Source: Chamaesiphon minutus PCC 6605
GTDB taxonomy: Bacteria; Cyanobacteriota; Cyanobacteriia; Cyanobacteriales; Chamaesiphonaceae
Direction of reading: 5' to 3'
DNA length: 64,000 bases
Assembly: GCF_000317145.1 (NCBI RefSeq)
Contig: NC_019697.1
Span: 1,736,001-1,800,000, forward strand
Shown here in pieces: positions 45,700 through 62,449 of this stretch. Position 1 is the first letter of the stretch; the number at the start of each line of letters is the position of its first letter. The notes under the pieces are model-generated. The model made no database searches and was not told the origin of the DNA. It saw nothing but the letters and a program-made list of their open reading frames with translations. A program made the position numbers and the translations under genes.

Positions 45700-46716
45700 A
45701 TGGAGCAACCCACTAGTACTACCACCAGTACACCCACTTTTGTCCTCGATGCCAATCCCCTAATTGCCGCATTTACCAGCTTCCTCCAATTCGATGTGGC
45801 ATCCGGCGGTGCTAGTGGCGAAACCATCCGTACCTATTGGTGCGAAGCGAAACAGTACTTGCTCTGGTGTGAGGTCAATCAACTCCAACCACTAGAAGTG
45901 ACGCGGGATGCGATTAAAATCTACCGCCATAACTTAGTTCAACAGCAATACAAACCTGCCACCATTGCCCTCAAATTAGTCGCTGTGAGTCGCATGTACG
46001 ATGCAGCGATGGAATATGGTCTACTTTCGCATAACCCCGTCTGGGGCGTAAAAGCACCAAAGCAACGCGGCGATCCGGCTGACTCAATCACTTATTTGAC
46101 TGCTAGTGAAGCAGAGACATTCCTCCAGGCTCCACTGGCTAAATCTACACCAATAAAAGTCCTCCGCGACCGTTTCCTGTTGGGGTTGATGACCCTCGAA
46201 GGGGTCAGGTCGATGGAAGCGCATCGGGCGAATGTGGGGGATATTCGCCGCGATCCAACTGGGGTGGGGATTACGGTCATGAGTAAGCGACAACAACGAG
46301 TTGTGCCGCTGATTCCCGATTTGGTGGATGTACTCGATCGTTATTTACTCGCCAGAAGACAGGCTAAATTTAGTACGGCGGCTGCTACTCCTTTATTTAT
46401 CAACGTCCATCATCCGCGCCATCACATCGACCCCGACCGTGAGGATCGTCGCTTATCAAGACGTGGGATTAGATTTATTGTTGATAGTTATCTCGAAGCC
46501 CTCAATCTCAAACATGGGGATGGACGGATTTTATCGGCTCATTCTTTGCGGCATACTGCGGGGACTTTAGCGATTCAGAATGGAGCATCCTTGCGTCAAG
46601 TTCAGGACTTATTGGGTCATGTCAATCCGAAGACCACGGCGATTTACACCCATGTGGGGGATCGGTGGGTTAATAATCCGGCTCTGAAATTGGGGATTCG
46701 ACTCAATCCCAATTAG
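45700..46716 (+). CDS. Tyrosine recombinase (XerC/D-like integrase)
   Basis: 338 aa. A SAM-like core-binding domain (about 20-115) is followed by the catalytic domain with Arg170 (GVRSMEAH), His281/Arg284 (HSLRHTAGTL), His307 (LLGHVN) and the nucleophile Tyr316 (TTAIYTHV). It breaks and rejoins DNA at specific sites. On a plasmid it would resolve multimers; on an island it would integrate or excise it. The lack of a nearby attachment site or tRNA favours plasmid upkeep. Confidence 0.88.
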   Translation: MEQPTSTTTSTPTFVLDANPLIAAFTSFLQFDVASGGASGETIRTYWCEAKQYLLWCEVNQLQPLEVTRDAIKIYRHNLVQQQYKPATIALKLVAVSRMYDAAMEYGLLSHNPVWGVKAPKQRGDPADSITYLTASEAETFLQAPLAKSTPIKVLRDRFLLGLMTLEGVRSMEAHRANVGDIRRDPTGVGITVMSKRQQRVVPLIPDLVDVLDRYLLARRQAKFSTAAATPLFINVHHPRHHIDPDREDRRLSRRGIRFIVDSYLEALNLKHGDGRILSAHSLRHTAGTLAIQNGASLRQVQDLLGHVNPKTTAIYTHVGDRWVNNPALKLGIRLNPN

Positions 46717-48087: not shown

Positions 48088-48468
48088 ATGGATCGTTTAA
48101 GTAGCAAGATTTGTCAATTAGCCGAAAACTTACTGATTAAAGGGGAGTTAATAATTTGGCGACGATTTTCGCTCGGTTCCTTATCTACTCTAGATATTGA
48201 GATTGCTCCGATCTGTAATCAACAAAGTGAGCGGATTGTTGTCGAGAAAATTATTGCCAGTAGTATCGTAGATTCTAATGCTGAAGAAGATGGTAGTACT
48301 ACTTATATCGTCGAAGTGCTAGCGGCTATTTGTAATGTTTCCTCTGTCGAAGAAAATAACTTCATGGTTGTTAATGGCGGTAGTAATAATAGCTATGAGC
48401 ATTCCGTAACATTTACAATCGGTCATCAGCCCGACAATACATTTGTATTGCTAGATGTAATGCTTTGA
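48088..48468 (+). CDS. Hypothetical protein, beta-rich
   Basis: 126 aa. Alternating hydrophobic segments (ELIIWRRFSLGSLSTLDIEI, TTYIVEVLAAICNV, HSVTFTIGHQP, TFVLLDVML) suggest a beta fold. No family is recognised. It has ordinary codon use and stands ahead of the RNA-polymerase-like gene together with the next gene. Confidence 0.55.
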   Translation: MDRLSSKICQLAENLLIKGELIIWRRFSLGSLSTLDIEIAPICNQQSERIVVEKIIASSIVDSNAEEDGSTTYIVEVLAAICNVSSVEENNFMVVNGGSNNSYEHSVTFTIGHQPDNTFVLLDVML

Positions 48469-48597
48469 TTGAAGTGGGATAACGGGATCGTAATTGCTAA
48501 CATAGTAAAAATCAAGAGCGATCTGCTGCGATCTACATCGCGAATTAAATTTGGTTACGGCACGATCGATCTCATAATTACCAGCACTGGAGGAAAC

Positions 48598-48969
48598 ATG
48601 GTTGTCGCACGTCAAGAATGGCTGGACTGGGAGTTCGATCCCCCTGGATTTTCAAAGTATGGGTGTGATGACATTGGCGATTTACTTGCTAGTGGGCAGA
48701 TGTCAGTTGAATTTCTAGACTATGGTGACTACTATGAACCGACAGAAGCAGAACTCGAAGAGGCTCGTCTGTGTCGTAGTGACGATCGGGAAATTGAAGC
48801 AGAACTGAGAAGGACGGTAAGTTACGAGGACGGGGAAACAGAAGCTCGGTACGAAGATCGAATTAGCGTACAAGTTAGCCTCCAATCAGGTAGGAGAGCA
48901 GACCAACGCGCAAAAGAGCGAATAGAACAAGGACTGCCTGACCTCGCGCATAATCCCAATGCTCTCTAA
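48598..48969 (+). CDS. Hypothetical acidic protein, possible partner of the next gene
   Basis: 123 aa from MVVARQEWLDWEFDPPGF, chosen because GGAGGAAAC lies directly upstream (the frame opens at 48469). It is acidic in the middle (YEPTEAELEEARLCRSDD) and basic near the end (SGRRADQRAKERIEQG). It ends 26 bp before the 1479-aa gene and is probably co-transcribed with it. No family is recognised. Confidence 0.6.
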   Translation: MVVARQEWLDWEFDPPGFSKYGCDDIGDLLASGQMSVEFLDYGDYYEPTEAELEEARLCRSDDREIEAELRRTVSYEDGETEARYEDRISVQVSLQSGRRADQRAKERIEQGLPDLAHNPNAL

Positions 48970-48995: not shown

Positions 48996-51900
48996 ATGCT
49001 GAAATTTGCTGAGTTTGATATCAAGACAGGTAGACCGATTCTCCAATACGATCCAATTACTGACGGTCAAATTCAAAGTTACAAGGAAGTGGACATTGCG
49101 TATCTGCAACACTGGCTCAGAGCCAGAGGTTTAGAACGCGCCCCACTATATACCGCCGATTTCTATGAGGGCATCAATCCATCAGATAATGAACGGCTGC
49201 TCAAACAAGGTAAGCACGTCATCTTCACGGGTGGCACCAGCGGTAAATATGTTTCTGCCTATTTTACCGACTCGGCGACCGCCCAGGCAATTCTCATCGG
49301 CAACGAGCGAGAGCCACCCCTGTACGAACTGGGGGATAAAAGTGCCCATTATGCCGTTGCCTACGGCTCCTTACCCATTTCTGACTGCTACAAAGACGCG
49401 ATCGTCAAAGGTGGTAATGGAAGGAAGATCTTAATTATCGATGACGAGGCACAATCGGTCGGCAGCGTACCGCTTACAGATCGGGATGGCAAGCCCGTTA
49501 AGGATGTTGGCGATCTGCTCGGACTTATGGGCGACGGGACGATGCTCTTGCCCACTGGATTGATGCGGGAGCTGCTGCTAGAGAAGGAAGTGAGCGCGAT
49601 AATTCGGCGAGGGATCGTTCGCGTAGCGTCCGCGAATCGCACAGACCACGACTTAAACGCAGAATTGGGAGTCGTCGGTGAGTGGCTAGATGAAGTTACT
49701 GGCGATAAAGTTGAGGATGAATTAGTCGCCCTCATCGCGGCTGAATATCGCGCCAACGGCAGAATCGGCACATCCCACGTCCATCTGAACACGGCTAAAA
49801 CGATAAATAAACTGCTAGATCGAGCAGCAGATGAAAGCGTCATCCAGTTTAGAGCAGCTATAACCGATACCCCAGGTATGTTTAAGGGGATGATGAAAAC
49901 GAGTAAGTGGTGCGAACGCTTGGGTGTCGCCGCGATCGTCAGTAAGAATTGCATCAAAGGTAATGGTGTAGATCTCGATACTGTCGGTATTTTGGAGCTG
50001 AATAAAGGCTCGACTCTGTGGATTGGGCGTAAAGAAGTTGCCACATGGGGCGAACAATCGGTAGGGATGCAGGTGAAAATCTGTATTCCCACTGCGACAG
50101 AGCGAGAGCTAAATCCGTTGGCACTGGCTAGAGCGGGTCAACTGACAGAAATTGCCGTCGATCCGTATTTACTGGGTCAAAAGTATATTGAAGACGATCG
50201 CCGCAAAAAGTCGAATCTGGTGATCGTCATCGATGACAATGGCGAGGTGAGCGGACAGGTACGCCAAAAAGATGCCCTTGCCGACTTGCTAGTCCTCGAT
50301 GTCAATGGCGAACTCACGCAAATGCCGACGATTCAGCGGCGGTTGACCGAAGCCTTACGGACTAGCTGGATCGATGCAGCCACTAGTGGGGTCGAAGTCC
50401 CTTCTGCTGTAGCTCAACATCATGGTAAGTTGGATGTCTGGGAAATCTGCAACCGCAAGCTCCCGCATGGAGCGGTAGTAGCTTTTTACCGCTCCCCAGT
50501 GCCTAATGTGTCGGCTTTTGCCTTGGGGGTAAATAACCTCGATCTTAAAGATGTAGATCCTGAATCCTACAACAAGCGGGGAGTGGTTTATGTCAACCCT
50601 TGGACTGCTAAAGAAATTGCCATCTCTGACTTTGATGGCGATAGGTTCGGTCAGTTTGTCGGCTACATTGCTAAAGATCCCAATGCTTTCATCGCTGCTC
50701 TGCGCGAGGTGGTGTCAGCTTCCCAATCTCCCTCCAGGCGTTATGAAGCTTTCCATGCTGCTCTGGCGCAATCGATTGAGTTGGGTACGGATTTTGAGCT
50801 TGGCACATTCCCTTTATCGGTTGATGAATTAGCGGTCGCGACTAGTTTAGAGCATCGACCCCAACAGATTAAGAAAGCTACAAAAAAGCCGCATCGTTGG
50901 GAACAATCCCAGAATCAACCAATCTCAGAAGCAATCTTTACCGCCTGGACTAATGTGGCTGCCAATCCCATCTCCAAGGTGGCAAATTTAGGGATGAACC
51001 TGCAAATGTTGGCGCAAAATGCCATTAATACCCCAGCTAATGAAAAAGCCGTTTTACTTAATAAAATTGGGACGGCGTTCGAGAAACTAAAGGCTATTCC
51101 CAGCAATGATGTCTTAATTAATGCAGGGCTTCCCGCCTTAGATCTTCAGGCTGGAATCGATCGCGTCACAGCACTAAATCACTCGATTTCTCCGCTAGAG
51201 CGAACCACCCCCGAACGTCAGATCGAGGTTGCCACGACTGGGCTTGCCCAAGTTGCGAAGATCCTCAAAGACTACGCTGAATATCCTGTTGCCAGTCAAC
51301 TTCAAGTCGCCGTCGATTCACTTAAAAGCAGTAACGGAATCAATGAAGATCTATTTAAGTTCGGACTAGCTCTGTGTTATCAAAAGAATGAAGTTAGAGC
51401 GGAGTTAAAAGCCGATTGGGTCTACAGTATCGATAAATCGCCGCCACGCGGATTGAGTACGGTTTTACCTGCAAATACTTACGAACCGATTGGCGAACAT
51501 GTAAGAGCGGTTAATGACATCTTTGAAAGCGTTCTTCAAGCCCAGCGGGACATCAAGATCGGCAGGGAAGATCTTAATGCTGCCTTTCGTCAGATCGTGC
51601 CATTGATTCACAATCCCCAAGATTCATTAATGGTTGACGGTTATGTGAGCCAATATCGGGCGGCGCGAGATATCCTGGGTGTTGCTACTGCCCGACAAAA
51701 CGAACAACGATTTGAAGATAAACAGCCCACTCTCACGATTACCTCTGCTAACAGTGGCAAAACATTCGAGGTTCACCGGACGATTCAAGCCCAGAATAAG
51801 AATACCCTCAACAAAAATCGCGTTTGGGAGTTAGAACCAAGTCAGGTCTATCGATTCTCGATCGAGAAAAATCTAACCGCGAGGGCAGATCCTTATCTGG

Positions 51901-53435
51901 TGAATCTCATTGATGCGAATGACAATAAAATAGCCATTCTCGGTTCTACCGCCCATGAAATGCTAGAACAGGGTAACTTCGAGCTAGAAAAATTAGATGC
52001 CGCTATGGAGCAGCGCGGCGCGGTGAAGCTCCAGGGACGAGTCGAACTACATCCTCCTCGGATGATGATTAACGATACCGACCGTCACAAAGCCGTGATG
52101 ACTCAGGTACTCGCCAACCTCAAAGCCGCCATTTCCCCAGAGCGCGAGGATGCGGCTCTGTCTGCCATTTGGTATGGCAATCAATCGACCGACCGCCGCG
52201 TCCGCAACAGTAGCGCGGGGATGTCAATCGCCACTAAAATCTTACCCGATCGATTGGGCGATTACCTGGGAGCCAAGCGCACGTTGGATTTGGGTCATGT
52301 TACCGAGTATGGTGGCATCCTCGCCGATGCCAATACCACGCTCGATCTCAGGATTGATAACCTCATCAAAAAGGAAGGAGCTGGAGCGGTGCCAATGGTT
52401 TCGGCAATCCTCCCCGATGGCTCCACGGTCGAACTAGGCAGCATCCTCAAGAGTGCGCCGCCACCGCCGCCAGGAAGCATTATTGCGGGAACGGTGACTC
52501 GGAAGGTACGGGATATCGATATTGTGGTAGGAAATGAGAAGCGCAAGGTAATTCCCACCGCCGAACTCACTGATGCTGGTTTAATCGATCGGACTGCTGC
52601 TAAGTTTGCGTTTAGAGTGAACGTTGGGGGGGTGGAAGTAAGTACCATTCATGGAGACAGCATGACAGTATTGGGAACGCTCGTACCGAAATCTCGCGAC
52701 CGCACCGACACCATCCCCAGCTCGAATGAGGGTACCTACGAGCGGACGTTCCACAGTCACCAAATCGAGGTACACGTCCGTGAATTTGTCGCCCATCAGC
52801 CAGTGAGTGATATTTTAAGCGGTGAACCGATCGTACTGCAACGCGAAATTAATCCCAATCTACCCCCCTTACAAACGCCACGACACCAACCTCCTCCCCC
52901 AGAAAGATATGTGCCCAATCGGGCGGAAATTGTCGGTTGGTACAAAGCCGCGATCGCAATTGACAATGCGGACGACACTCGCTATCTAACCCAGATCGGA
53001 CAACAACTCAAGGCAGCTTACATGGGTGAGCCGTTTATGCAGGGTCAACCGCGCGTCGAGATTCTACCCGATGATTACCACCATGCGACAGTTGCAATTT
53101 CAATTGAAGATAAACAACGCCTGGACTCGATGCACGAACGTCCGTCTCCTTCTTATTGCCCCACCAGAGCCGATGTGGTGCAGTGGTACAAAGCAGCGGT
53201 GAAAGTAGCTGATGCCCCAAATACTCAATATTTGATGGATCTGGGAACGCAACTCAAGACTGCATATCTGAATGAGCCGTTCATGCAAGGTCGAGCGACT
53301 GTAGAGCAGTTACCGGATGAATACCAAAACTCTGCGGTATCGATATCGATGGCAGATAAGCAACGGCTTGATGCAATGAGCGAACGCGCCAACGAACCCC
53401 AACCCCAGATCCAACGTTCATCGCGAAGTCGCTAA
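48996..53435 (+). CDS. Large protein with RNA-polymerase-type DFDGD motif (candidate single-chain RNA polymerase)
   Basis: 1479 aa. Residues 533-550 read VNPWTAKEIAISDFDGDR; the metal-binding Asp triad DFDGD (545-549) preceded by a VNP.TA strand, and YRSPVPN (498-504) about 45 residues earlier, match the order R-x-P then (N/H)P...DFDGD of the second double-psi beta-barrel in RNA polymerase beta-prime (NADFDGD) and in single-chain relatives (YonO, QDE-1). A Lys-rich stretch at about 295-325 (FKGMMKTSKW, KNCIKGNG) could be the first barrel. Residues about 1280-1479 hold a Pro-rich linker and two tandem repeats of about 85 residues (GWYKAAIAIDNADDTRYLTQ / QWYKAAVKVADAPNTQYLMD). Polymerase activity is inferred from the motif only. 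Confidence 0.6.
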   Translation: MLKFAEFDIKTGRPILQYDPITDGQIQSYKEVDIAYLQHWLRARGLERAPLYTADFYEGINPSDNERLLKQGKHVIFTGGTSGKYVSAYFTDSATAQAILIGNEREPPLYELGDKSAHYAVAYGSLPISDCYKDAIVKGGNGRKILIIDDEAQSVGSVPLTDRDGKPVKDVGDLLGLMGDGTMLLPTGLMRELLLEKEVSAIIRRGIVRVASANRTDHDLNAELGVVGEWLDEVTGDKVEDELVALIAAEYRANGRIGTSHVHLNTAKTINKLLDRAADESVIQFRAAITDTPGMFKGMMKTSKWCERLGVAAIVSKNCIKGNGVDLDTVGILELNKGSTLWIGRKEVATWGEQSVGMQVKICIPTATERELNPLALARAGQLTEIAVDPYLLGQKYIEDDRRKKSNLVIVIDDNGEVSGQVRQKDALADLLVLDVNGELTQMPTIQRRLTEALRTSWIDAATSGVEVPSAVAQHHGKLDVWEICNRKLPHGAVVAFYRSPVPNVSAFALGVNNLDLKDVDPESYNKRGVVYVNPWTAKEIAISDFDGDRFGQFVGYIAKDPNAFIAALREVVSASQSPSRRYEAFHAALAQSIELGTDFELGTFPLSVDELAVATSLEHRPQQIKKATKKPHRWEQSQNQPISEAIFTAWTNVAANPISKVANLGMNLQMLAQNAINTPANEKAVLLNKIGTAFEKLKAIPSNDVLINAGLPALDLQAGIDRVTALNHSISPLERTTPERQIEVATTGLAQVAKILKDYAEYPVASQLQVAVDSLKSSNGINEDLFKFGLALCYQKNEVRAELKADWVYSIDKSPPRGLSTVLPANTYEPIGEHVRAVNDIFESVLQAQRDIKIGREDLNAAFRQIVPLIHNPQDSLMVDGYVSQYRAARDILGVATARQNEQRFEDKQPTLTITSANSGKTFEVHRTIQAQNKNTLNKNRVWELEPSQVYRFSIEKNLTARADPYLVNLIDANDNKIAILGSTAHEMLEQGNFELEKLDAAMEQRGAVKLQGRVELHPPRMMINDTDRHKAVMTQVLANLKAAISPEREDAALSAIWYGNQSTDRRVRNSSAGMSIATKILPDRLGDYLGAKRTLDLGHVTEYGGILADANTTLDLRIDNLIKKEGAGAVPMVSAILPDGSTVELGSILKSAPPPPPGSIIAGTVTRKVRDIDIVVGNEKRKVIPTAELTDAGLIDRTAAKFAFRVNVGGVEVSTIHGDSMTVLGTLVPKSRDRTDTIPSSNEGTYERTFHSHQIEVHVREFVAHQPVSDILSGEPIVLQREINPNLPPLQTPRHQPPPPERYVPNRAEIVGWYKAAIAIDNADDTRYLTQIGQQLKAAYMGEPFMQGQPRVEILPDDYHHATVAISIEDKQRLDSMHERPSPSYCPTRADVVQWYKAAVKVADAPNTQYLMDLGTQLKTAYLNEPFMQGRATVEQLPDEYQNSAVSISMADKQRLDAMSERANEPQPQIQRSSRSR

Positions 53436-54469: not shown

Positions 54470-54931
54470 ATGCGTACTGCTACTCCCAATCTGTTGATTC
54501 TTACCGTTCAAACTGACACCAACAATATTACTGGCACTGCGATCGATGCCGATATCCTCGTCAATTTTGCAGTTGCCAATACCGAAGTCAATCAACGCCT
54601 ATTCGTGCCTGAAGCGCAACTGGTGGTAACTGGCAAATTCCGCTTAGGTAAACAGCTTGCCACTATCGGTATTTTAATTTCCAGTGTAGTAGTAATCGTC
54701 TCGATTCCCGCACCCGCTTCTGCTGAGATTGCAGATTCGGCGGTAGCGACTGGTGCTGAATCCTCTACCGATGTTAAATCGGTTGTAGAGCCTGAGATTG
54801 CCGCTGTTGATGTTGAGTCTAGCGCACCCTCAACCACTCAACCTGCACAATCGCAAACTCGCGCCCAAAAAGCCGCTGCTACTCGTGCCGCCAAGAAAGC
54901 CAAAACCAAGGCTGAATCTGTGCCGTGCTAA
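54470..54931 (+). CDS. Hypothetical protein with Ala/Lys-rich tail
   Basis: 153 aa. The N-terminal half (LLILTVQTDTNNITGTAIDA, LFVPEAQLVVTGKFRL) could be a small beta barrel like the SSB-like neighbour; then comes one hydrophobic helix (IGILISSVVVIVSIPAPASA) and a Ser/Glu/Ala tail ending in KAAATRAAKKAKTKAES, which should bind nucleic acid. It may be a membrane-linked DNA-binding protein. No family match. Confidence 0.5.
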   Translation: MRTATPNLLILTVQTDTNNITGTAIDADILVNFAVANTEVNQRLFVPEAQLVVTGKFRLGKQLATIGILISSVVVIVSIPAPASAEIADSAVATGAESSTDVKSVVEPEIAAVDVESSAPSTTQPAQSQTRAQKAAATRAAKKAKTKAESVPC

Positions 54932-54950
54932 GTATGCTGCATTAACATCG

Positions 54951-54988
54951 ATCGCCTCTTAGCCCTGCGCTTGTAGGCGATTGTTTTG
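54951..54988 (+). terminator. Leader hairpin 3
   Basis: ATCGCCT pairs with AGGCGAT over a 17-nt loop, then TGTTTTGTG. A second hairpin GGTCG/CGACC follows at 55001-55017 before the ATG at 55041; read on the other strand it ends in a T run. Confidence 0.5.
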
Positions 54989-55040
54989 TGCCCATAAAAA
55001 AGGTCGTGAAACCGACCAAAACTTTAATTAATTATTTCTT

Positions 55041-55466
55041 ATGCTAACCCAAACATCTACTCAATTCCAACATTTTGAATTTAACGAATTGCTCCCAGGC
55101 TTAGTCATCTGTGAATCCTCGCGAGATCTTCACGGTTGGGACAACGCTACGGCAAATACTCCCGCATTCTTGGTTTATTTGGGCTACAACGTCCCCACCG
55201 AACGCGATGAGTGGATTACCAAGCTGCGCCTAGTTTGGAAGATTGAGGGTGAAATTCTCGACCGTCCCAGTCAGCGAGTTAAAGGCTACTGGCATGAAAT
55301 TAAGATTCGGGGAATGAAAAGATACTCCGACCCTGATGTGTTCGAGTTGGATTACCTGAGCGAATCTCAAGATTATGGCTTGGACTTCCTCACCCAATTA
55401 TGGCAGATGAAACTAGAGCTTGCTGTTTATGAAGATGCGATCGACACCCGACTATTAAATAGTTAA
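55041..55466 (+). CDS. Hypothetical protein
   Basis: 141 aa soluble protein with no signal or repeats. Features are CESSRDLHGWDNATANTPAF and WITKLRLVWKIEGEILDRPS, with several Trp/Tyr. The family is not recognised, but intact codon use and its place in an array of similar-sized genes support a real gene. Confidence 0.6.
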   Translation: MLTQTSTQFQHFEFNELLPGLVICESSRDLHGWDNATANTPAFLVYLGYNVPTERDEWITKLRLVWKIEGEILDRPSQRVKGYWHEIKIRGMKRYSDPDVFELDYLSESQDYGLDFLTQLWQMKLELAVYEDAIDTRLLNS

Positions 55467-55472
55467 AATAGA

Positions 55473-55498
55473 GATGCCGCGTTAATCAACACGGCATC
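55473..55498 (+). terminator. Leader hairpin 4
   Basis: GATGCCGCGTT pairs with AACACGGCATC (one mismatch); ends 28 nt before the TPR gene ATG at 55527. Confidence 0.55.
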
Positions 55499-55526
55499 TT
55501 CAACTTTGAAATTATCGGTCAAATTT

Positions 55527-56132
55527 ATGTTGGAAGAATCAACCATGCTAGACCTGCAAAACTCTGATTCCACAATCCAAATTGCTGCGGGTAATGCTGA
55601 AGATTACTATCATCGCGCCAACGTAAACTATTACGAACTTCAAGATTTCCACGGTGGATTGTCCGATTACGAGCGTGCCATTGAATTAGACCCCAACCAT
55701 GCCTTAGCTTACAGTAATCGTGGCAACATCAAAAAAGATAATCTTCAAGATTATCGGGGGGCATTAGCTGATTACGATCGCGCACTCTCGCTCGATCCCA
55801 ATGATGCTGTTACTTACTACAACCGCGCCCTACTGAAAAATATCAAGCAGGATTACCAAGGGTCACTTGCCGACTACGATCGCGCGATCGAACTGGCGGA
55901 CGATGATGCCGATAGCTATAACAATCGGGCGATGCTCAAATATCTGGAAATTGAGGATTTAGTCGGGGCAATCGAAGATATGCAGATCGCTCGATCTCTC
56001 TATCAGCAGCAAGGCAATGATGCCAGAGCGACTCAAGCTGTCGAGTTAATCGCACGGTTTCAATCGAAGATCGATAGTTCGGGTTTGCAGGTAGATTTCT
56101 TGAAGACGGGATCGATCGAAGAAGATCGATAG
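55527..56132 (+). CDS. Tetratricopeptide-repeat protein (short)
   Basis: 201 aa from MLEESTMLDLQNSD (the frame opens at a TTG at 55506). Four TPR units (for example YYHRANVNYYELQDFHGGLS and YSNRGNIKKDNLQDYRGALA) are followed by a helical end. It is a shorter relative of the protein at 46861-47649. It may be a protein scaffold for the replicon functions. Confidence 0.82.
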   Translation: MLEESTMLDLQNSDSTIQIAAGNAEDYYHRANVNYYELQDFHGGLSDYERAIELDPNHALAYSNRGNIKKDNLQDYRGALADYDRALSLDPNDAVTYYNRALLKNIKQDYQGSLADYDRAIELADDDADSYNNRAMLKYLEIEDLVGAIEDMQIARSLYQQQGNDARATQAVELIARFQSKIDSSGLQVDFLKTGSIEEDR

Positions 56133-56143
56133 CTTACAATAGA

Positions 56144-56175
56144 GATAGCAGATTAGTTAGTGCTAATCCGCTATC
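56144..56175 (+). terminator. Hairpin after TPR gene
   Basis: GATAGCAGATTAG pairs with CTAATCCGCTATC (one mismatch). A further hairpin TTTGGC/GCCAAA then TTGTTTTAGG lies at 56242-56257, 41 nt before the next ATG. Confidence 0.55.
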
Positions 56176-56298
56176 TCAAAACCCTCAACATCTTGCTTTT
56201 AAAGTCACTACATAAGTTAATTGTAAATAACTAGTTGGATGTTTGGCTAACGCCAAATTGTTTTAGGTTTTAGCCATCATATCAATAGGAATTGTATT

Positions 56299-56664
56299 AT
56301 GTCTGATGAACGTTTTGACCGCCTTGAAAGTCAATTAGCACAGGTGATCCAATCTATTGCTACCATGCAGCAGAATATGGCGACCAAGCAAGATTTAGCC
56401 GCTGTTGAGCAAAAGGTATCTGGTATCGAGCAGAAAGTAACCGCTCTAGCTAATAATCTTGATGCTGTCCGCGAGGATGTTATGGTGCTGCGTCGTCGTG
56501 TCGAGAGCAGCGAAGGAGTCGTGCTTGTCGCCATCCGCGATGGTTTCCGCCGCCAGGAAGACTCGATAAACGATCTTAATTACGATCTTTCAGTCAACGA
56601 GCGGAAAACTCGTCGTTTGAGTCGTCGGGTTTCTCGTCTGGAGCGTAAAGAGAACGATGATTAA
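56299..56664 (+). CDS. Coiled-coil protein
   Basis: 121 aa, almost wholly heptad-like (RLESQLAQVIQSIATMQQNM, VEQKVSGIEQKVTALANNLD, RRRVESSEGVVLVAIRDGF), ending in a basic RKTRRLSRRVSRLERK segment. Such short coiled coils are common in phage and plasmid genomes. Function unknown. Confidence 0.65.
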   Translation: MSDERFDRLESQLAQVIQSIATMQQNMATKQDLAAVEQKVSGIEQKVTALANNLDAVREDVMVLRRRVESSEGVVLVAIRDGFRRQEDSINDLNYDLSVNERKTRRLSRRVSRLERKENDD

Positions 56665-56750
56665 ATACTTTCAATCATAGTTATTCAGCTTTCGTTAACG
56701 TTAGGATTGATAATTTTGCTACTGCAAAACTGTTTTGGTTCATCACTTCA

Positions 56751-56780
56751 AGCCCCGATGCTTATTGGGGCTTTTTTTTG
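56751..56780 (+). terminator. Intrinsic terminator
   Basis: AGCCCC pairs with GGGGCT followed by eight T. A smaller hairpin TTTTGC/GCAAAA with TGTTTTGG precedes it (56714-56729), and a similar one AATTTTGC/GCAAAATT lies at 56842-56861. Confidence 0.75.
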
Positions 56781-56894
56781 TGCTGCTAACTCATTAGTAA
56801 TCGCTATATTCGAGCCTTCTTGGCGATGCTTTATTCCTACCAATTTTGCAGTGGCAAAATTGCTCTAGTTGTTATTTTTCAAGCTTCAACCCTG

Positions 56895-56923
56895 GCATCA
56901 GTCTTAACAACTGGTGCTTTTTT
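56895..56923 (+). terminator. Hairpin with T run ahead of DUF5895 gene
   Basis: GCATCAGT pairs with ACTGGTGC (one G-T pair), then TTTTTT; 41 nt before the ATG. Confidence 0.65.
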
Positions 56924-56958
56924 GGTGCTTTCATTACTCACTTTATCCCCAGAAATTT

Positions 56959-57915
56959 ATGACCTCTAACCCAGAAAACAAGTATCTCAGCCGCCAATAT
57001 GCTGCCACAGACTTCTCGTTTCCCTACGTCCAAGGGCTGCGCGGGGAAGACCCCAAGCAGTACGGCTATTTCGTGCCCGTATCCCAAGCCAGTAAAGCAG
57101 GTTGGCGCGATTTAGATGCCGACAAACTTACCCAGTATGCCTACAACAACGGCAAAACTGAAGTCGGGATCTTATTTCAACAGCCGCGCATGGTGGTAAC
57201 TCCCGTCTCTAGTTTGGGGATGTTCGACCGCAAGGCATCTCTCGAAGACGAAACCCTAGTCGTCATTGGCAAGTGGGATCGCCAGCATCAGGATGACGCA
57301 AATATCGGGAACTTCCAAATCTACTTGGTAATGTTCTTCGACGAACACAAGCAGCCACTCCACGACATTCCCTTGAAGTTAGTGGCTAAAGGCGCACAAC
57401 AAGCGACTTTATCAGAGCAGTGGCAGCAATTTTGTGTAGCCGTAGCGCGGTGTCAGGCACAGGCGAACAAGGTCTTCTTTAGCCCTCGCAACGAAGTCTT
57501 TAATGCTTTGTGCTTGTTTCAACCTCACCTGATCCGCAAAAGTGTCGGGGAAACCATCAAATCTCCTGCCCTATATGTCGATGGTTACGTCGAGCCAACA
57601 GTTGATAACTGGCAAGATTTCTTTCTCGGCACCGATGAAGATCTCGCCGATATGGTGGTGGGCTTGATGAATCCGCGTTCCCGTCTGCTACTTGCCGATC
57701 CTACTGTTGGGGCAATTTCCCTTATTCCCGCTGCCGACCCACAGCCCCAAATCGAGGCTCAACCCGCTCATCCAACTGTGGGGAGTCCAGCTCTTGATTC
57801 TCATCCCGCCATCGATGTGCAGTCATCGACCGTTGCACCCACTCAAGGGGACGGTACCAATGGGGGTCGCACTTCCCAAATCGATACCGACGACATCGAT
57901 AAAATTCCGTTCTAG
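56959..57915 (+). CDS. DUF5895 protein with SSB-like C-terminal tip
   Basis: 318 aa from MTSNPENKYLSRQYA. The first two thirds (PKQYGYFVPVSQASKAGWRD, AYNNGKTEVGILFQQPR) match the cyanobacterial DUF5895 family. A low-complexity linker of Pro/Gln/His residues follows, and the last residues are TDDIDKIPF, close to the acidic D-D-x-I-P-F tip with which SSB recruits RecO, PriA and others. A globular domain, a flexible linker and this tip together suggest a single-strand-binding role, which is inference. Confidence 0.7.
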   Translation: MTSNPENKYLSRQYAATDFSFPYVQGLRGEDPKQYGYFVPVSQASKAGWRDLDADKLTQYAYNNGKTEVGILFQQPRMVVTPVSSLGMFDRKASLEDETLVVIGKWDRQHQDDANIGNFQIYLVMFFDEHKQPLHDIPLKLVAKGAQQATLSEQWQQFCVAVARCQAQANKVFFSPRNEVFNALCLFQPHLIRKSVGETIKSPALYVDGYVEPTVDNWQDFFLGTDEDLADMVVGLMNPRSRLLLADPTVGAISLIPAADPQPQIEAQPAHPTVGSPALDSHPAIDVQSSTVAPTQGDGTNGGRTSQIDTDDIDKIPF

Positions 57916-58005
57916 ATTCTTGCCGTCGTGATTGGGGTAACGTAAAGCCCCAATTGCTGCTGTCTGGGTGCGATTGTTTAATTCTTGCTGCGACCGTAGT
58001 GACAG

Positions 58006-58044
58006 AAATCGACAAGCAAAGTATCTCCCTTTGCTTGTCGATTT
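58006..58044 (+). terminator. Terminator after DUF5895 gene
   Basis: AAATCGACAAGCAAAG pairs with CTTTGCTTGTCGATTT around TATCTCC, followed by T residues. Confidence 0.72.
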
Positions 58045-58087
58045 TGACGAGTCAATTGTTAACAACTACTCAACTTCTTGACTAAAT

Positions 58088-58231
58088 ATGTCTCCAAACA
58101 TTATACCTAATCTCTCGCTTGGAAAATTTGATTTCGCCCAAATCGACTCGGCTGAAGCTGAGGAAATCGCACGGCTTGAGCAACTGATGCTCGACCGCGA
58201 GGACTACTATCAACTGGGTTACAGCTACTAG
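58088..58231 (+). CDS. Small acidic protein
   Basis: 47 aa (MSPNIIPNLSLGKFDFAQID, then EEIARLEQLMLDREDYYQLG). It is acidic and probably helical. Terminators on both sides and an ATG 43 nt after the upstream one fit the pattern of the other genes in this block. No family is recognised. Confidence 0.5.
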   Translation: MSPNIIPNLSLGKFDFAQIDSAEAEEIARLEQLMLDREDYYQLGYSY

Positions 58232-58299
58232 CAAGGGACGAGTGTAGCGACCTACCCACCAGAATCCTCACGACTGGCTAAGTTACCTATTCTACTGCT

Positions 58300-58331
58300 A
58301 CCGCCAAGCTATCTCGACTTGGCGGTTTTTT
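58300..58331 (+). terminator. Terminator ahead of DUF932 gene
   Basis: ACCGCCAAG pairs with CTTGGCGGT, then TTTTT; 33 nt between stem end and ATG. Confidence 0.75.
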
Positions 58332-58358
58332 GTTAACCACTATCACAATTTCAAACTC

Positions 58359-59402
58359 ATGAAAACTGGACGAACCCTGGAAGAATTAGCTCGTGAGTTA
58401 CTAGACCAACAAGAGTCTAAACGCGACTTTCACGCTCAAACTAAAACTTTGAACATGCTGCCAACTGGTCAATTTCGCCTGGAAACTAAAGACGAAGAGA
58501 TCTTGATGCCAGCGACGGCACATGCTCATGCACAGATGGCAAGCAAATTTAACATCCCCAAAGTTTATTACGACCGAATGCTCAAGAATTCGCCCCAATT
58601 GCTGTCCCAAAACGTCAATCACTGGTTGGGTCAATCCGAAGACACTAGCTTGATTCGCAGCTTGCGAGGACAGATGCGCGCTGTTTTGAGCAATCGCTAT
58701 CGGATCGTCGATCACCACGATATTTTAGCGATCGTACTGCAAGAACTTCAAGAAATGGGTGACGGGATGAAAATCGCCAGTTGTCAAGTCACCGATTCGC
58801 GGATGTACTTGAAGGTCATCAACACCAACATTGAGGAAGCAATCTCCGTCGGCGATCTTTGTCAAGCCGGATTCGTTTTATCAAATTCTGAGGTTGGTCT
58901 TGGAGCGATTTCAATTGAACCATTTGTGCTACGTCTGGCTTGCCTCAATGGTTTAATTTTGAAAGACCGTCGCCAACGCAAAAATCACGTTGGTCGTGTC
59001 AGCGAAAATAACGACCTATATGCCATCGACACTCTTCAAGCGATTGATGATGCCTTCAAGCTGCAACTACGTGACTTGGTACGGAATGCGGTAAGTATTA
59101 CAACTTTTCGCGAAGCAGTCGAAGACTTACAACTCTCGCAAACTAGCCTCATCACTGGTAATCCGGTCAAAGCGGTCGAAGTGACAGCTAAGGTAATCGG
59201 ACTTAATGAGCGCGAATCTGGGTCGGTGTTAAGCCATCTAATCCGCTCTGGCGACTTGAGCAAATTTGGGATGCTCAATGCTGTAACCCGTTCTGCCGAA
59301 GACGTTGAGCATTACGACCGTGCGACCGAGATCGAGCGGCTTGGCTCCGATGTGTTGTACCTGCCCTCAACCATTTGGCGCGAGGTTGCTACTGCCAGCT
59401 AA
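58359..59402 (+). CDS. DUF932 (phage/plasmid-like TIGR03299) protein
   Basis: 347 aa. FRLETKDEEILMPATAHAHA, LRGQMRAVLSNRYRIVDHHD and the AISIEPFVLRLACLNGLIL segment are typical of DUF932, found on many phages and plasmids and often near recombination or replication genes. Its biochemical role is not known. It precedes a Gp157 gene, a common phage pairing. Confidence 0.8.
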   Translation: MKTGRTLEELARELLDQQESKRDFHAQTKTLNMLPTGQFRLETKDEEILMPATAHAHAQMASKFNIPKVYYDRMLKNSPQLLSQNVNHWLGQSEDTSLIRSLRGQMRAVLSNRYRIVDHHDILAIVLQELQEMGDGMKIASCQVTDSRMYLKVINTNIEEAISVGDLCQAGFVLSNSEVGLGAISIEPFVLRLACLNGLILKDRRQRKNHVGRVSENNDLYAIDTLQAIDDAFKLQLRDLVRNAVSITTFREAVEDLQLSQTSLITGNPVKAVEVTAKVIGLNERESGSVLSHLIRSGDLSKFGMLNAVTRSAEDVEHYDRATEIERLGSDVLYLPSTIWREVATAS

Positions 59403-59416
59403 TTAGCCGACGAGAT

Positions 59417-59456
59417 CGCGCCACTGTGCTAACACGAATTTGAGCACAGTGGCGCG
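59417..59456. terminator. Hairpin after DUF932 gene
   Basis: CGCGCCACTGTGCT pairs perfectly with AGCACAGTGGCGCG (14 bp). No T run. Confidence 0.6.
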
Positions 59457-59546
59457 ACATCTATCTCTCGATCGCTCGATCTGTATCACACAATACAAAA
59501 AAACATTTCGTTACAATGAAGGAGTAATATTTAAGTACTAGGCAAA

Positions 59547-59912
59547 GTGGAAGACTCAACCCAATCTGTCGTGCGTAGCGACGACAATTCTCACCTCAAT
59601 CTTAATGTTGGCGACATTATTAAGTTTACCTTTGATAATCTTAATTCTGAGCGGTCTGAAAGTCTAACTGTCCAAGTTAGACTAATTCATAACTCCGGTG
59701 GTAAAGTTTATTATTATCTAGATCTGAATGGACTGATAGTTCCGACCGAAGATAATGCTGAATATTATCTAACTGGAGATAGATTTTATCTAAGTTTAGA
59801 GCTAGAACGTTGGCAATTTAATGTGACTAAAGTTTATTGTGAAGATAACGCTCCGGTATCGTATCCATTTAGGATTAATATATTTGACTTAGAAATTATC
59901 CGCAGGAGCTAA
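59547..59912 (+). CDS. Hypothetical protein, beta-rich
   Basis: 121 aa from a GTG (MEDSTQSVVRSDDNSH). Alternating strands (DIIKFTFDNLNSERSESLTV, GGKVYYYLDLNGLIVPT) suggest a beta sandwich. No family known. It is followed after 30 bp by a terminator. Confidence 0.5.
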   Translation: MEDSTQSVVRSDDNSHLNLNVGDIIKFTFDNLNSERSESLTVQVRLIHNSGGKVYYYLDLNGLIVPTEDNAEYYLTGDRFYLSLELERWQFNVTKVYCEDNAPVSYPFRINIFDLEIIRRS

Positions 59913-59943
59913 GTACCAAAATTATCTTGATCATCTTTGTTTT

Positions 59944-59975
59944 GCCAGCAGCTATGAATAGTTGCTGGCTTTTTT
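59944..59975 (+). terminator. Terminator ahead of Gp157 gene
   Basis: GCCAGCAGCTA pairs with TAGTTGCTGGC around TGAA, then TTTTTT. Confidence 0.75.
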
Positions 59976-60016
59976 CGATCTAATTATACTCTAATAATCA
60001 CTAATCTCATCAAATT

Positions 60017-60580
60017 ATGCCATCACTAATTAATCTCGAATCACAACGCGATCGACTTGTCGAAGAAATTATGGAGCTTACTGAGTCAACTTCTAATGAA
60101 GGTATTCCAGACGCAACCGATCCCGAAGAACTAGTTGCCAAGTTTGAAGAGTTAGAAGCTGCCATTACCGATAAAGTCGATGCGATTGCAGCGGTTGTTG
60201 CCGCTCAAAAAGGCGATATTGCCTATCTTAAATCGCGCCGCGACGAATTTACTCGCATCATCGATCGTAAGGTCAAAGCACTAGAAAAATTCGAGAACTA
60301 CCTCAAAGCGATTGTTACTAACCGACCCGATGCCCAGCTTAAAGGTCTTGACGCAACCATTAAGGTTGTCAAAAATGGTGGCGTTCAACCCATTTGGCTC
60401 AATCCAGATATCGAGGAGCGAAACTTTCCTCCCGATTTGGTCACGATTGCCACGACCTATAAGGTCGATCGTCAAGCCGTAGTGAAAAAGTTGGCTGAGT
60501 CTGGACAAGATAGTTTGATTGTTGATGGTAAACCGATTGCCACCGTGCAACCAAGGGGGACACATTTACGAATTGGTTGA
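60017..60580 (+). CDS. Gp157-family phage/plasmid protein
   Basis: 187 aa. An N-terminal coiled coil (LVAKFEELEAAITDKVDAIA, DIAYLKSRRDEFTRIIDRKV) and the C-terminal TIKVVKNGGVQPIWLNPDIE and YKVDRQAVVKKLAESGQ follow the siphovirus Gp157 family (PF05565). Members occur next to single-strand-binding or recombination genes in phages. Exact function uncertain. Confidence 0.72.
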   Translation: MPSLINLESQRDRLVEEIMELTESTSNEGIPDATDPEELVAKFEELEAAITDKVDAIAAVVAAQKGDIAYLKSRRDEFTRIIDRKVKALEKFENYLKAIVTNRPDAQLKGLDATIKVVKNGGVQPIWLNPDIEERNFPPDLVTIATTYKVDRQAVVKKLAESGQDSLIVDGKPIATVQPRGTHLRIG

Positions 60581-60605
60581 ACTGTCAACCTCTTTATCTT
60601 CATCT

Positions 60606-60636
60606 AGCCAGCGACTATTAATCGCTGGCTTTTTTG
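60606..60636 (+). terminator. Terminator after Gp157 gene
   Basis: AGCCAGCGA pairs with TCGCTGGCT, then TTTTT. A second hairpin ACTGCTACC/GGTAGCAGT is at 60740-60771. No gene is supported between 60637 and 60809. Confidence 0.75.
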
Positions 60637-60809
60637 TGCCTTTATTCCTTATATTTTACAATCCGATCCGACCGCCTTGGTGGCGCGCTTTCGTCCGACC
60701 GCACCAGCCGTCAATTTATTACTGCTAGGACGACGACATACTGCTACCACATTTAAGACTGCGGTAGCAGTAGGGCTTTGATTTGCTTATTATTACGATC
60801 GCGAAAAAT

Positions 60810-61568
60810 ATGTCTTCAATTATCAGATCTGAAGAAAACGGCATCGAATTATTCACCATCCAAACTACTGGCGAGTCGGGAATGTCTCAAACTGGACTAG
60901 CTATTTTGTCAGGTGTTACGAAGCAAGCCATCAGTACGTTACTCAAGGGTTTAAAGCCGTCAAATCAAAGGCTTTCTGAATCATTACAAGCTTGGACTGA
61001 TAAGGATTTGAGCCTGTCAAGCAACACGATTAAACAAGGTGGATCAGTTCAAGTTTTAAAATCCGAGTTTTGTGCGGCAGTCATCCAACACTATGCCTTT
61101 GCTGGGAATAAAACGGCTCAATTTTCACTGATGAAGTTTGCAGGGATGGGAATCGACAAGTGGATTCAACAACAGACTGGCTGGGACTCAACCTTGTCTA
61201 ACCTTCAACATATCCTTCTACTCGCTCAAAATGCTCTAGAACAACATCAACAACTTGAAGTTCGTACCACGAACCTCGAAGAACTCGTCCATCAACACGA
61301 CGGGGAAGTCGTTGGCGTAGCCGCTCCCTTGGAGCATCGCATCTTTCACCCAGACGGTACCTATTTTTCGATTCGCGGTTATGCCAATAAGCGATCGCGA
61401 AAGTTATCCAAGAAGGAAGCCAGCGATCTTGGACGTGCCGCCACCAAAATGTCTCGCCAACGGGGAGTAACGATCGACAAACTCGAAGATTCGCGCTACG
61501 GAGCAGTCAACGTCTACCACGAATCAATCTTAGCTCAGGTTTTCAATAGCCCATCACCTTCAAAATAA
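60810..61568 (+). CDS. Antirepressor-like protein with HTH
   Basis: 252 aa from MSSIIRSEENGIELF (a TTG at 60783 is in frame). An N-terminal helix-turn-helix is visible (MSQTGLAILSGVTKQAISTL), and the C-terminal region SDLGRAATKMSRQRGVTIDK with RYGAVNVYHESILAQVF resembles ORF6C/BRO-type phage antirepressors (PRFG.VN.Y...L). It likely regulates transcription or replication of the element. Confidence 0.62.
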   Translation: MSSIIRSEENGIELFTIQTTGESGMSQTGLAILSGVTKQAISTLLKGLKPSNQRLSESLQAWTDKDLSLSSNTIKQGGSVQVLKSEFCAAVIQHYAFAGNKTAQFSLMKFAGMGIDKWIQQQTGWDSTLSNLQHILLLAQNALEQHQQLEVRTTNLEELVHQHDGEVVGVAAPLEHRIFHPDGTYFSIRGYANKRSRKLSKKEASDLGRAATKMSRQRGVTIDKLEDSRYGAVNVYHESILAQVFNSPSPSK

Positions 61569-61589
61569 CTAACTTTGAGCGAAGGATAT

Positions 61590-61612
61590 TGCGGCTGTAG
61601 CCGCAGTGTTTT
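61590..61612 (+). terminator. Leader hairpin 5
   Basis: TGCGGCT pairs with AGCCGCA around GT, then GTGTTTTGG; stem ends 29 nt before the ATG at 61635. Confidence 0.6.
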
Positions 61613-61634
61613 GGAATCAATTAGGAGCAAAATC

Positions 61635-61874
61635 ATGTGCAAACAAAAAGTAAGTTGTGCCAATTGCCTGTACGGGGACTACTGGCATGAGCCGGACAAT
61701 TGCGACTCTCCCGAAGAGTTTGGCTTTGACTGTAGCTATCCCGTCCTTGGCTCAAAGCTAGTTCGCAAATCTCGAACTAACTGGCATATCGACGAAGACG
61801 AGGAGTTAGTCGCAGAATGTCTGGATTATCTACCGGAAACCATTGCATCTTCAGTCTTAGAAACTTCAGCTTAA
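61635..61874 (+). CDS. Small Cys-rich protein, possible zinc-binder
   Basis: 79 aa from MCKQKVSCANCLYGDYWHEP (AGGAGC upstream; the frame opens at 61575). Cys residues in CANC, NCDSP and DCSY, with nearby His, could hold zinc. The C-terminus is acidic. No family recognised. Confidence 0.58.
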   Translation: MCKQKVSCANCLYGDYWHEPDNCDSPEEFGFDCSYPVLGSKLVRKSRTNWHIDEDEELVAECLDYLPETIASSVLETSA

Positions 61875-61876
61875 TC

Positions 61877-61925
61877 GTTGGCGTTGGCGAAGCCTCTCGT
61901 TGGCGTAGCCTCTCGAAGAGAAGAG
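61877..61925. repeat. Short tandem heptamer-like repeat
   Basis: GTTGGCG and GCCTCTC recur (GTTGGCGTTGGCGAAGCCTC, then GTTGGCGTAGCCTCTC), the kind of short tandem repeat common in filamentous cyanobacteria. It lies between a gene and a terminator. Confidence 0.5.
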
Positions 61926-61968
61926 AAGCCTCTGGCGAATAAGAATCGCTATCTAAATTCACTAATAT

Positions 61969-62003
61969 AGCACCAGCTCTTAACTGCCGTTGGTGCTTTT
62001 TTG
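61969..62003 (+). terminator. Terminator ahead of next small gene
   Basis: AGCACCA pairs with TGGTGCT, then TTTTTT; stem ends 29 nt before the ATG at 62027. Confidence 0.72.
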
Positions 62004-62026
62004 TTCACCTATTATTACTCAAAATC

Positions 62027-62374
62027 ATGCGGACAGTAACAGCACGAGATTTAGCTTGTTTGGATGAGGTCGTTGTTAGTATTTTCCGGTTAATCGGTAA
62101 TCATCGAAAGTTGAAAGTAATGTTCGGAGCTTCTAGCTTTGTTAAAGGATATTTTTATGACACAGATCGTCCAGGCGTACAATTCAATTTTCCTCGGAGC
62201 AATCAAATTAACTGTTGTCAGATAGTTCTAAATCGGCAAACTGATGAGTACTGCCTTGTATTTCTAGATGTTAAAGATTCACAGTTTTTCGAGCGAGGTA
62301 ACTACCAAAATCTTCCACTCGCAAATGTCCGCAGTGTGTTTGAAGAGGTAACTGGACTTTATCTGAGCTTCTAG
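62027..62374 (+). CDS. Hypothetical protein
   Basis: 115 aa (MRTVTARDLACLDEVVVSIF). Mixed alpha/beta pattern with LKVMFGASSFVKGYFYDTDR and RQTDEYCLVFLDVKDS. It lacks a Shine-Dalgarno box, like its neighbours. No family match. Confidence 0.5.
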   Translation: MRTVTARDLACLDEVVVSIFRLIGNHRKLKVMFGASSFVKGYFYDTDRPGVQFNFPRSNQINCCQIVLNRQTDEYCLVFLDVKDSQFFERGNYQNLPLANVRSVFEEVTGLYLSF

Positions 62375-62392
62375 CTTGAACTACTTTGATAA

Positions 62393-62424
62393 AGCCTTGT
62401 CTAACTAAGTAGACAAGGCTTTTT
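62393..62424 (+). terminator. Terminator ahead of next small gene
   Basis: AGCCTTGTCTA pairs with TAGACAAGGCT, then TTTT; stem ends 29 nt before the ATG at 62450. Confidence 0.75.
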
Positions 62425-62449
62425 AGTCCCTAATATCAATTTAATAATT

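Follow-up and report, generated by a model that had tools for sequence, protein, structure and literature searches.

A single-chain two-barrel polymerase of Chamaesiphon minutus and cyanobacterial plasmids, a candidate element-specific RNA polymerase

There is one uninterrupted open reading frame (ORF) that encodes a 1479 amino acid protein in the 64,000-nucleotide stretch of Chamaesiphon minutus PCC 6605 considered here (contig NC_019697.1, positions 1,736,001 to 1,800,000). The whole stretch is called the window, its own numbering is used throughout, and the polymerase gene with its features, the two genes before it and the recombinase gene described below lie on the forward strand. The ORF (48996..53435) starts with ATG, and its conservation and a predicted model place a single-chain two-barrel polymerase fold within residues 1-1100. 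An earlier note on this DNA had singled out an R-x-P followed by DFDGD at residues 498-550, and R499, P501, N513, P535, A538 and DFDGD (545-549) are located as described there and are conserved among relatives.

The predicted first barrel (residues 282-355; 49839..50060) carries QFR (284-286), K297-G298 and K321-G322, and the proposal that a Lys-rich stretch at 295-325 represents this barrel fits the two Lys-Gly pairs. The second barrel (residues 467-559; 50394..50672) carries R499-x-P501, N513, P535 and the DFDGD sequence (50628..50642), which is presumed to be the metal-binding triad. A further family signature, LQ..VD..KS, is represented by LQVAVDSLKS (769-778; 51300..51329), in which VDxxKS occupies residues 773-778 at the end of a long helix. 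RNA-dependent RNA polymerases (RdRPs) share a VDxxK motif.

These features form a near-invariant pattern in an alignment of 42 family members (QFR...KG...KG...RxP...N...P..A...DFD.D...N...LQ..VD..KS). D545, D547 and D549 are each conserved in 40 of the 42 sequences, the remaining two rows being incomplete ORFs in which this region is missing. Comparable conservation is seen for K297, G298, K321 and G331 (41 rows), G322 (39 rows), V773 (40 rows) and D774, K777 and S778 (41 rows), and thus the polymerase motif is no chance match. The triad varies to DFDRD or DFDKD in seven aligned rows and to DCDGD in one, the window copy has DFDGD, and a sister clade with proteins of approximately 880 amino acids, to which the 884-residue protein of an Anabaena WA102 plasmid belongs, has DTDGD in its place. 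When the gene is compared with a second copy in the genome that is 87-90% identical, the ratio of nonsynonymous to synonymous substitution rates (dN/dS) is 0.11 over the core and 0.18 over the tail.

An AlphaFold2 model of residues 1-1110, built from 35 sequences, has a predicted local distance difference test (pLDDT) score of 83.7 and a predicted template modelling (pTM) score of 0.82. Its strands fall into two groups according to DSSP (282-355 and 467-559), wherein the putative beta-type barrel comes first and DFDGD sits in a loop just before the strand at 550-559. Both barrels are therefore predicted to lie in one chain, unlike those of the separate beta and beta-prime subunits. Conservation and loop position place a DxDxD triad on the second barrel, and the first barrel provides two basic residues, K297 and K321 (41 of 42 rows). 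According to a passage in PMC7824862, the first barrel of the RdRP/YonO branch lacks an SBHM insertion, and the first-barrel strands of the model span only about 75 residues. The two strand groups and the barrel-loop position of DFDGD uphold the polymerase assignment of the earlier note, and nothing in the model points to a fold without two barrels or to DFDGD lying elsewhere.

Comparisons with solved structures, which the same note had proposed as a check, lead to RdRPs and phage single-chain RNA polymerases (RNAPs). The top VIA-align match is QDE-1 (2j7n, Z 17.0, 630 residues aligned, root-mean-square deviation (rmsd) 6.4), followed by plant RDR2 (7w82, Z 16.7, 622 residues, rmsd 4.9; 7rqs, Z 15.8, 609 residues, rmsd 4.1), and the phage proteins gp62 and gp64 score about 14 (gp62, 8f5m, Z 14.2, 518 residues, rmsd 4.0). 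The alignments extend over residues 1-1102 for QDE-1 and 1-1097 for RDR2. Largest subunits of multisubunit RNAPs reach a Z of 8.9 or less, and so the single-chain part of the comparison made earlier stands, whereas the likeness to beta and beta-prime gives way to one with RdRPs of RNA interference (RNAi) and phage single-chain RNAPs. At E<=0.001 Foldseek finds nine PDB entries, every one a eukaryotic RdRP or a single-chain phage RNAP, and their TM-scores, taken by query, are modest (0.14-0.38). Among viral predicted structures there are 16 matches at E<=0.001, which include a protein named 'RNA dependent RNA polymerase', crAss-like phage proteins and several nameless entries.

Some family members also give profile matches when scanned singly. 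Of 35 members, 9 match the Pfam RdRP family PF05183 at E<=1 (best 7.7e-7), and three of eight members that were rescanned pass its curated cut-off of 23.8 bits (L059 with 25.8, L060 with 24.3 and L062 with 24.8; L, G and C numbers are our labels for loci, genomes and contigs). The PHROG named 'RNA-dependent RNA polymerase' (phrog_4291) is matched by 5 of 35 at E<=0.01. A profile made from the family alignment finds no PDB sequence at E<=1, and residues 1-1110 of the window protein match no Pfam family. On the strength of the structural matches and of the Pfam and PHROG matches of single members, the family is assigned by model and sequence to the single-chain two-barrel polymerases, which include an already known kind of RNAP.

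The polymerase fold is followed by a beta-rich region with no fold assigned (approximately residues 1095-1298; 52278..52889) and by two helical repeats (1299-1383, 52890..53144; 1381-1472, 53136..53411). These repeats, which had been noticed earlier, are real by repeat search and tail model. The model of this C-terminal region has a pLDDT of 74.8 and a pTM of 0.49, and its structure searches give no Foldseek match at E<=0.001 and a best VIA Z of 4.2. Many long members have one or two copies of the repeat close to their C-terminus, and in the loci searched it also occurs in three other ORFs.

The family can be set beside several known systems. QDE-1 and plant RDR2 (PF05183) have both barrels in one chain, the same motif order and a DxDGD triad, with Z values of 15.8-17.0, and some relatives pass the PF05183 cut-off. 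However, the window family is bacterial and plasmid-linked, has approximately 9-12% sequence identity to these enzymes, carries extra C-terminal repeats and has no silencing domain in the neighbours scanned, and the window protein itself falls below PF05183. The phage P23-45/P74-26 proteins gp64/gp62 and the RNAP of the crAss-like phage phi14:2 (Foldseek E 4.6e-6) share the single-chain two-barrel fold, but they are phage genes, and the window protein has no tblastn relative in 50,697 phage records. The late genes of the Bacillus prophage SPbeta are transcribed by YonO, a DNA-dependent RNAP according to PMC5467207, and YonO is likewise a single-chain two-barrel enzyme on a mobile element. YonO belongs to phrog_4291, which 5 of 35 relatives match, whereas the window protein has no significant PHROGs match; the window family is also longer, plasmid-linked and associated with an acidic partner gene and, on sister plasmids, with promoter-like arrays.

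These arrays are most apparent on the Anabaena WA102 plasmid (NZ_CP011457, L191:25106-37378), where there are about 25 small genes in one direction and many ATG codons are preceded by GCTATCGC, often followed by GTTGTTTTT and frequently located right after a terminator-like hairpin. There are 18 copies of GCTATCGC on the array strand, 15 of them inside the array, and one on the opposite strand. Variants are found on Planktothrix plasmids (GCTACCGC and GCTAACGC) and on a Synechocystis B12 plasmid (CTATCGG/T), and a Phormidium yuhuli plasmid (L165:34736-41218) has four exact copies of AACCCTACCGGATT located 27-32 nucleotides before annotated starts, some of them after a hairpin.

The element was counted as CTA[TC]CG located 20-50 nucleotides before ATG, in sense versus antisense orientation. 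Antisense counts are the only control used, since GCTATC lies inside the element and makes a 'reversed' control of this count invalid. Eight of 14 sister-type stretches show a sense excess, 98 versus 9 when summed: WA102 (15/39 v 4/39) and its close kin G336 (16/40 v 2/40) and G205 (21/40 v 3/40), G116 (15/32 v 0/32), G314 (11/29 v 0/29), Synechocystis B12 (5/17 v 0/17) and the related Planktothrix plasmids p2 (7/37 v 0/37) and p3 (8/31 v 0/31). Because of these kinships, the eight represent about five lineages. The chromosomal part of the window at 1-45000 gives 1 v 1 as a control, the loci of a branch with proteins of about 1100 amino acids give 5 v 3, and plasmid pPg_05 gives 5 v 0. Among long relatives, the related form GCTA[TCA]CGC precedes ATG 9 v 0 in L041-L043, which come from three genomes, and four copies are located at 32-34 nucleotides. 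Of 183 loci of at least 8 kb, nine have at least five copies of GCTATCGC, and the four with a one-sided strand ratio (24:0, 18:1, 14:2 and 14:1) are all from polymerase contigs.

A scan of 388 genomes for CTATCG-N8-18-GTTGTTTTT finds matches in 77, mostly scattered singles, and a reversed control pattern also gives scattered matches. Only two contigs have at least three sites, G336:C66 (four) and G319:C88 (three), and both encode a polymerase (98% and 57% identical to that of WA102, respectively). G314 is missed by this pattern and has its own array (15:2). The close clade (at least 47% identity) is present in nine of the 388 genomes, and Pseudanabaena-type relatives in sixteen more. In viral contigs, one form of the element gives 72 single matches and no array, and the second form gives none.

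The gene directly upstream of the polymerase encodes a 166 amino acid acidic protein (48469..48969) that has a net charge of -13 and a DDIGDLLASG motif. A short ORF with D.(I/V).(D/E)LL..G...DD(L/I) lies directly upstream in 22 of 35 distinct polymerases of at least 1300 amino acids. When polymerases down to 1000 amino acids are counted, such an ORF precedes 24 of 81, with only 2 of 46 among the shorter of these, and the motif is found in 31 of 868 control ORFs of 60-200 amino acids. The expression missed look-alikes in L046 and L047. Farther upstream is a 126 amino acid protein of unknown function (48088..48468) with no blastp homologue in the loci compared. Thus, of the two upstream genes once described as unknown, the description holds for this one and is superseded for its acidic neighbour, which has counterparts before many long relatives.

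These observations cause us to favour, as a moderately probable interpretation, a DNA-dependent RNAP that transcribes genes of the plasmid or element on which it is encoded, starting at dedicated promoters that are not of the sigma70 type. The active site would consist of K297 and K321 from the first barrel together with D545, D547 and D549 from the second, a proposal for which prediction and conservation are the basis. By analogy with the action of YonO on SPbeta late genes, the enzyme may transcribe plasmid or integrated-element genes, the GCTATCGC-type element might be its promoter, and the acidic protein could be a polymerase subunit. Co-occurrence in the sister clade, and within a single group of long relatives, suggests the promoter link. 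Catalysis, a DNA template and the same mode of action for the window copy are all what we infer. The fuller proposal, in which an RNAi-polymerase-like enzyme, a small acidic subunit and a dedicated GCTAYCGC-type promoter ahead of many genes in long arrays give many cyanobacterial plasmids and integrated elements a private transcription system independent of host sigma factors, is more tentative, with chances that we put slightly short of even. The earlier note had named both an RNA polymerase and a primer-making enzyme, and the promoter-like arrays on sister plasmids favour the former.

Unfortunately, several results weigh against this interpretation. Searches of Pfam, NCBIfam and PDB sequences give no match to the window protein, and its three PHROGs matches are weak (E>=0.2) and do not include phrog_4291. 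There is no excess of the element in the window element itself (CTA[TC]CG 1 v 2; GCTA[TCA]CGC 2 v 1), and pooled long-subfamily loci, with L042 and L043 included, give 9/219 v 9/219 with the short core. GCTA[TCA]CGC yields 6 v 4 in loci other than L041-L043, duplicates excluded and the window included. Six of the 14 sister-type stretches lack a clear excess, 13 v 11 in sum (G178 1 v 0, G319 2 v 1, G123 2 v 2, G323 1 v 0, Phormidium 4 v 3 and Dolichospermum 3 v 5). Moreover, WA102, Planktothrix, Phormidium and B12 had already been inspected when the core and distance were settled, and therefore the counts for these are not blind; the other stretches were fetched later. In the genome scan only G319 is an independent match, because G336 is nearly identical to the WA102 plasmid from which the pattern was taken. 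A second pattern, drawn from long relatives, matches 139 of 388 genomes, and its 7-base-spaced clusters, among the matches listed, are in the genomes that supplied the pattern (G060:C363 three, G060:C377 one, G082:C40 two and G329:C2 one), and G060:C363 is absent from the listed polymerase contigs. The other five loci with at least five copies of GCTATCGC are not one-sided (6:8, 5:3, 3:5, 3:3 and 3:2), and GCTATCGC is one base from the HIP1 repeat. HIP1 is palindromic, and so it has no strand bias. The RNase HI and RepB_primase_C fusions described below belong on the same side of the balance.

No strong candidate emerged when the window element and its copies were searched de novo for 7-mers, WA102 serving as the positive control. 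There is a copy of GCTAACGC at 56246-56253 of the window, 45 nucleotides before the ATG at 56299, and a copy of GCTACCGC at 58297-58304, 54 nucleotides before the ATG at 58359, which are too few to judge. Several genes at 54470-62450 follow a terminator-like hairpin that by eye ends approximately 30-50 nucleotides before the start codon, and therefore there would be little room for a sigma70 promoter.

The main rival, possible but in our view unlikely, is a plasmid primase, whose RNA primers would serve plasmid DNA replication or, after conjugation, synthesis of the second strand. Priming holds this position because of two kinds of fusion. RNase HI follows the polymerase in three different proteins (P0004 of a Gloeothece plasmid, L121, and L044, which is the L085 locus), and RepB_primase_C (PF22448) is located close to the C-terminal end in two polymerase frames, G386:C136 with a score above the cut-off and G223:C281 with one beneath it. 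Two counts would also suit a primase: 7 of 104 distinct loci have a DNA polymerase A gene (fam27) no more than 12 kb away, and plasmid records contain roughly a single copy each (33 places in 28 records for the window protein as query, 92 in 81 for a query from the ~1100-residue branch). However, RNase H could also clear R-loops, the fusions are rare, and the promoter-like arrays fit transcription. Rep functions, moreover, could be supplied by other proteins of four plasmids: a CyRepA1 family protein on pPg_05 (145.0 of 145.3 kb read) and on Planktothrix p2 (50.0 of 51.8 kb), VapE on the Phormidium plasmid (50.0 of 51.6 kb) and a DUF3987 protein on pCYAN10605.01 (about 53 of 62.9 kb). Since these four plasmids carry another Rep candidate, the polymerase is unlikely to be a replication initiator; no Rep is annotated in the portions read of the WA102, Planktothrix p3 and Dolichospermum plasmids, which were partial reads.

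Perhaps, in analogy to virion RNAPs and conjugative primases, the polymerase passes through a type IV secretion system together with plasmid DNA and transcribes or primes the incoming strand in the recipient, an idea that we regard as improbable. Plasmid pPg_05 has VirB10-like and VirD4-like genes, a relaxase and two polymerases, and PLSDB types it as non-mobilizable. Across the plasmid records with relatives, 35 of 81 are typed conjugative, whereas 31 of 81 are typed non-mobilizable. Some polymerases and plasmid proteins have in common a RepB_primase_C module and a similar basic C-terminal end, and tail charge is slightly raised (mean 1.1 for 94 tails versus 0.0 for 834 control ORFs, p 1e-4), but a charge of at least +4 occurs in 11% of the tails versus 9% of the controls, so that a basic tail is not general. 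Still less credible is an RdRP of a bacterial RNA-silencing or defence pathway, even though QDE-1 and RDR2 are the closest solved folds and relatives match the Pfam RdRP family. No Argonaute- or Dicer-like domain is found in the 20 proteins that represent recurrent neighbour families, to which this search was limited, the RNase HI fusions point to RNA-DNA hybrids, and YonO and the P23-45 enzymes, which have the same fold, transcribe DNA according to passages in PMC5467207 and PMC10770324. Least credible of all is a fold that has lost catalysis and serves a structural or DNA-binding role. The DFDRD and DFDKD variants and the interruption of two of the four genome copies by insertions would suit such a loss, but almost all rows that span these positions retain the three aspartates, both Lys-Gly pairs and VDxxKS, the window copy has DFDGD, and dN/dS is 0.11.

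A C-terminal type IV secretion signal was rejected as a candidate on the same comparison of strong basic tails, which are hardly commoner than in controls. Work on secretion signals of the RSF1010 primase reportedly exists. In five plasmids (two from Pseudanabaena and one each from Phormidium, Planktothrix and C. aponinum), a search by GC skew revealed no clear origin, and a k-mer search upstream of genes was dominated by HIP1 in Pseudanabaena and is where the Phormidium motif emerged. CyRepA and CyRepX are described in part of PMC10899382 as widespread large replication proteins of cyanobacterial plasmids, CyRepX being without Pfam domains, and the polymerase family similarly consists of large proteins of such plasmids. 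However, CyRepX1 (Slr6031) has by eye none of the barrel motifs, and CyRepA1-family Reps are separate proteins on the same plasmids as the polymerase. CyRepX (Slr6031/Slr6090) was accordingly set aside as a known member of the family, in a comparison by eye that covers Slr6031 of pSYSX and finds no DFDGD, QFR or VDxxKS.

If a private transcription system were confirmed, it would be a bacterial plasmid counterpart of the RNAPs encoded by phages, and it might offer an orthogonal expression system for cyanobacteria. Few single-chain two-barrel polymerases have been characterized, and a large, diverse, plasmid-linked family that stands close to the RNAi polymerases and comes with a candidate promoter and accessory protein provides many new enzymes to study. 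The reason why plasmids keep a polymerase of their own, whether for transcription or for priming, becomes a testable question. In the literature, at the level of titles, abstract openings and passages among the matches listed, and with older two-barrel surveys (Iyer and Aravind; Ruprich-Robert and Thuriaux) not included, there is no mention of the distribution on plasmids, the acidic partner, the fusions or the promoter-like arrays. Enzymes of the single-chain two-barrel type have been proposed, in the abstract of PMC5467207, to resemble the ancestor of all multisubunit RNAPs.

The window is part of a 6.28-Mb contig in a genome of 6.76 Mb and three contigs, and the plasmid-like backbone that the earlier note had perceived is borne out in part. 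Many relatives reside on plasmids, and the element has a tyrosine recombinase gene (45700..46716; PF00589, E 9.5e-23), a homologue of which lies beside chromosomal copy 2. The genome holds four polymerase copies: that of the window, the 87-90% identical one, one with 38-50% identity on the chromosome and one with 38% identity on a 447-kb contig. The other two chromosomal copies are both split by insertions. Copy 2 (L038:9600-10450) is interrupted by an insertion with inverted ends and copy 3 (L037) by a 413 amino acid ORF that by eye resembles an IS4-type transposase; group I and group II introns were dismissed as the cause, there being no Rfam match.

Relatives are present in 63 of 388 genomes of the class. 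The 28 plasmid records matched by the window protein are all from cyanobacteria, as are the 60 records among the matches listed for the query from the ~1100-residue branch and the titles of all 77 loci found in named genomes by a profile search. The closest named relatives are on Chamaesiphon contigs (40% identity), and annotations, among the matches listed, are nearly always 'hypothetical protein'. Some relatives are chromosomal (the window copy, G178 and G252). Pseudanabaena galeata, Nostoc sp. C052 and Gloeothece verrucosa each have three plasmids that bear relatives, and the Pseudanabaena plasmids have two paralogues near each other. One relative (L074:8036-12243) appears decayed, its sequence being broken up by stop codons into three open frames.

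There is no relative in the 50,697 phage records when the window protein and two relatives are used in tblastn, nor in viral contigs scanned with the window protein and with the profile. The phage family phrog_34895 (function unknown, 1093 positions) matches 12 of 35 members (best E 9.5e-53), which implies that phage relatives must exist, and judging from these sequence matches it is probably a two-barrel polymerase family too. A 798 amino acid Pseudanabaena paralogue (L054:7828-10221) matches it at 1.6e-52, and the window protein has no match to it at E<=1.

Among the proteins whose genes recur near the polymerase in the 104 distinct loci are ParA, ParB, DNA polymerase A, a ThiF/E2/JAB module, a TraC-like ATPase and Rho_N proteins. 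Plasmid proteins other than the polymerase also contain RepB_primase_C, and their ends are similar to those of certain polymerases. Three of these (L157, L159 and L161) are plasmid proteins of 457-677 amino acids with RepB_primase_C modules and a C-terminal GM[SE][YM] end as in some polymerases. On Gloeothece verrucosa NC_014502 (L155:5908-13173) there is a giant polymerase of at least 2422 amino acids joined to RNase HI and annotated only as 'ribonuclease H'. Downstream of the window polymerase are genes for a DUF5895 protein (56914-57915) and a DUF932 protein (58359-59402), whose homologues are near other copies, and a DUF5895 gene is also located within the Anabaena WA102 array.

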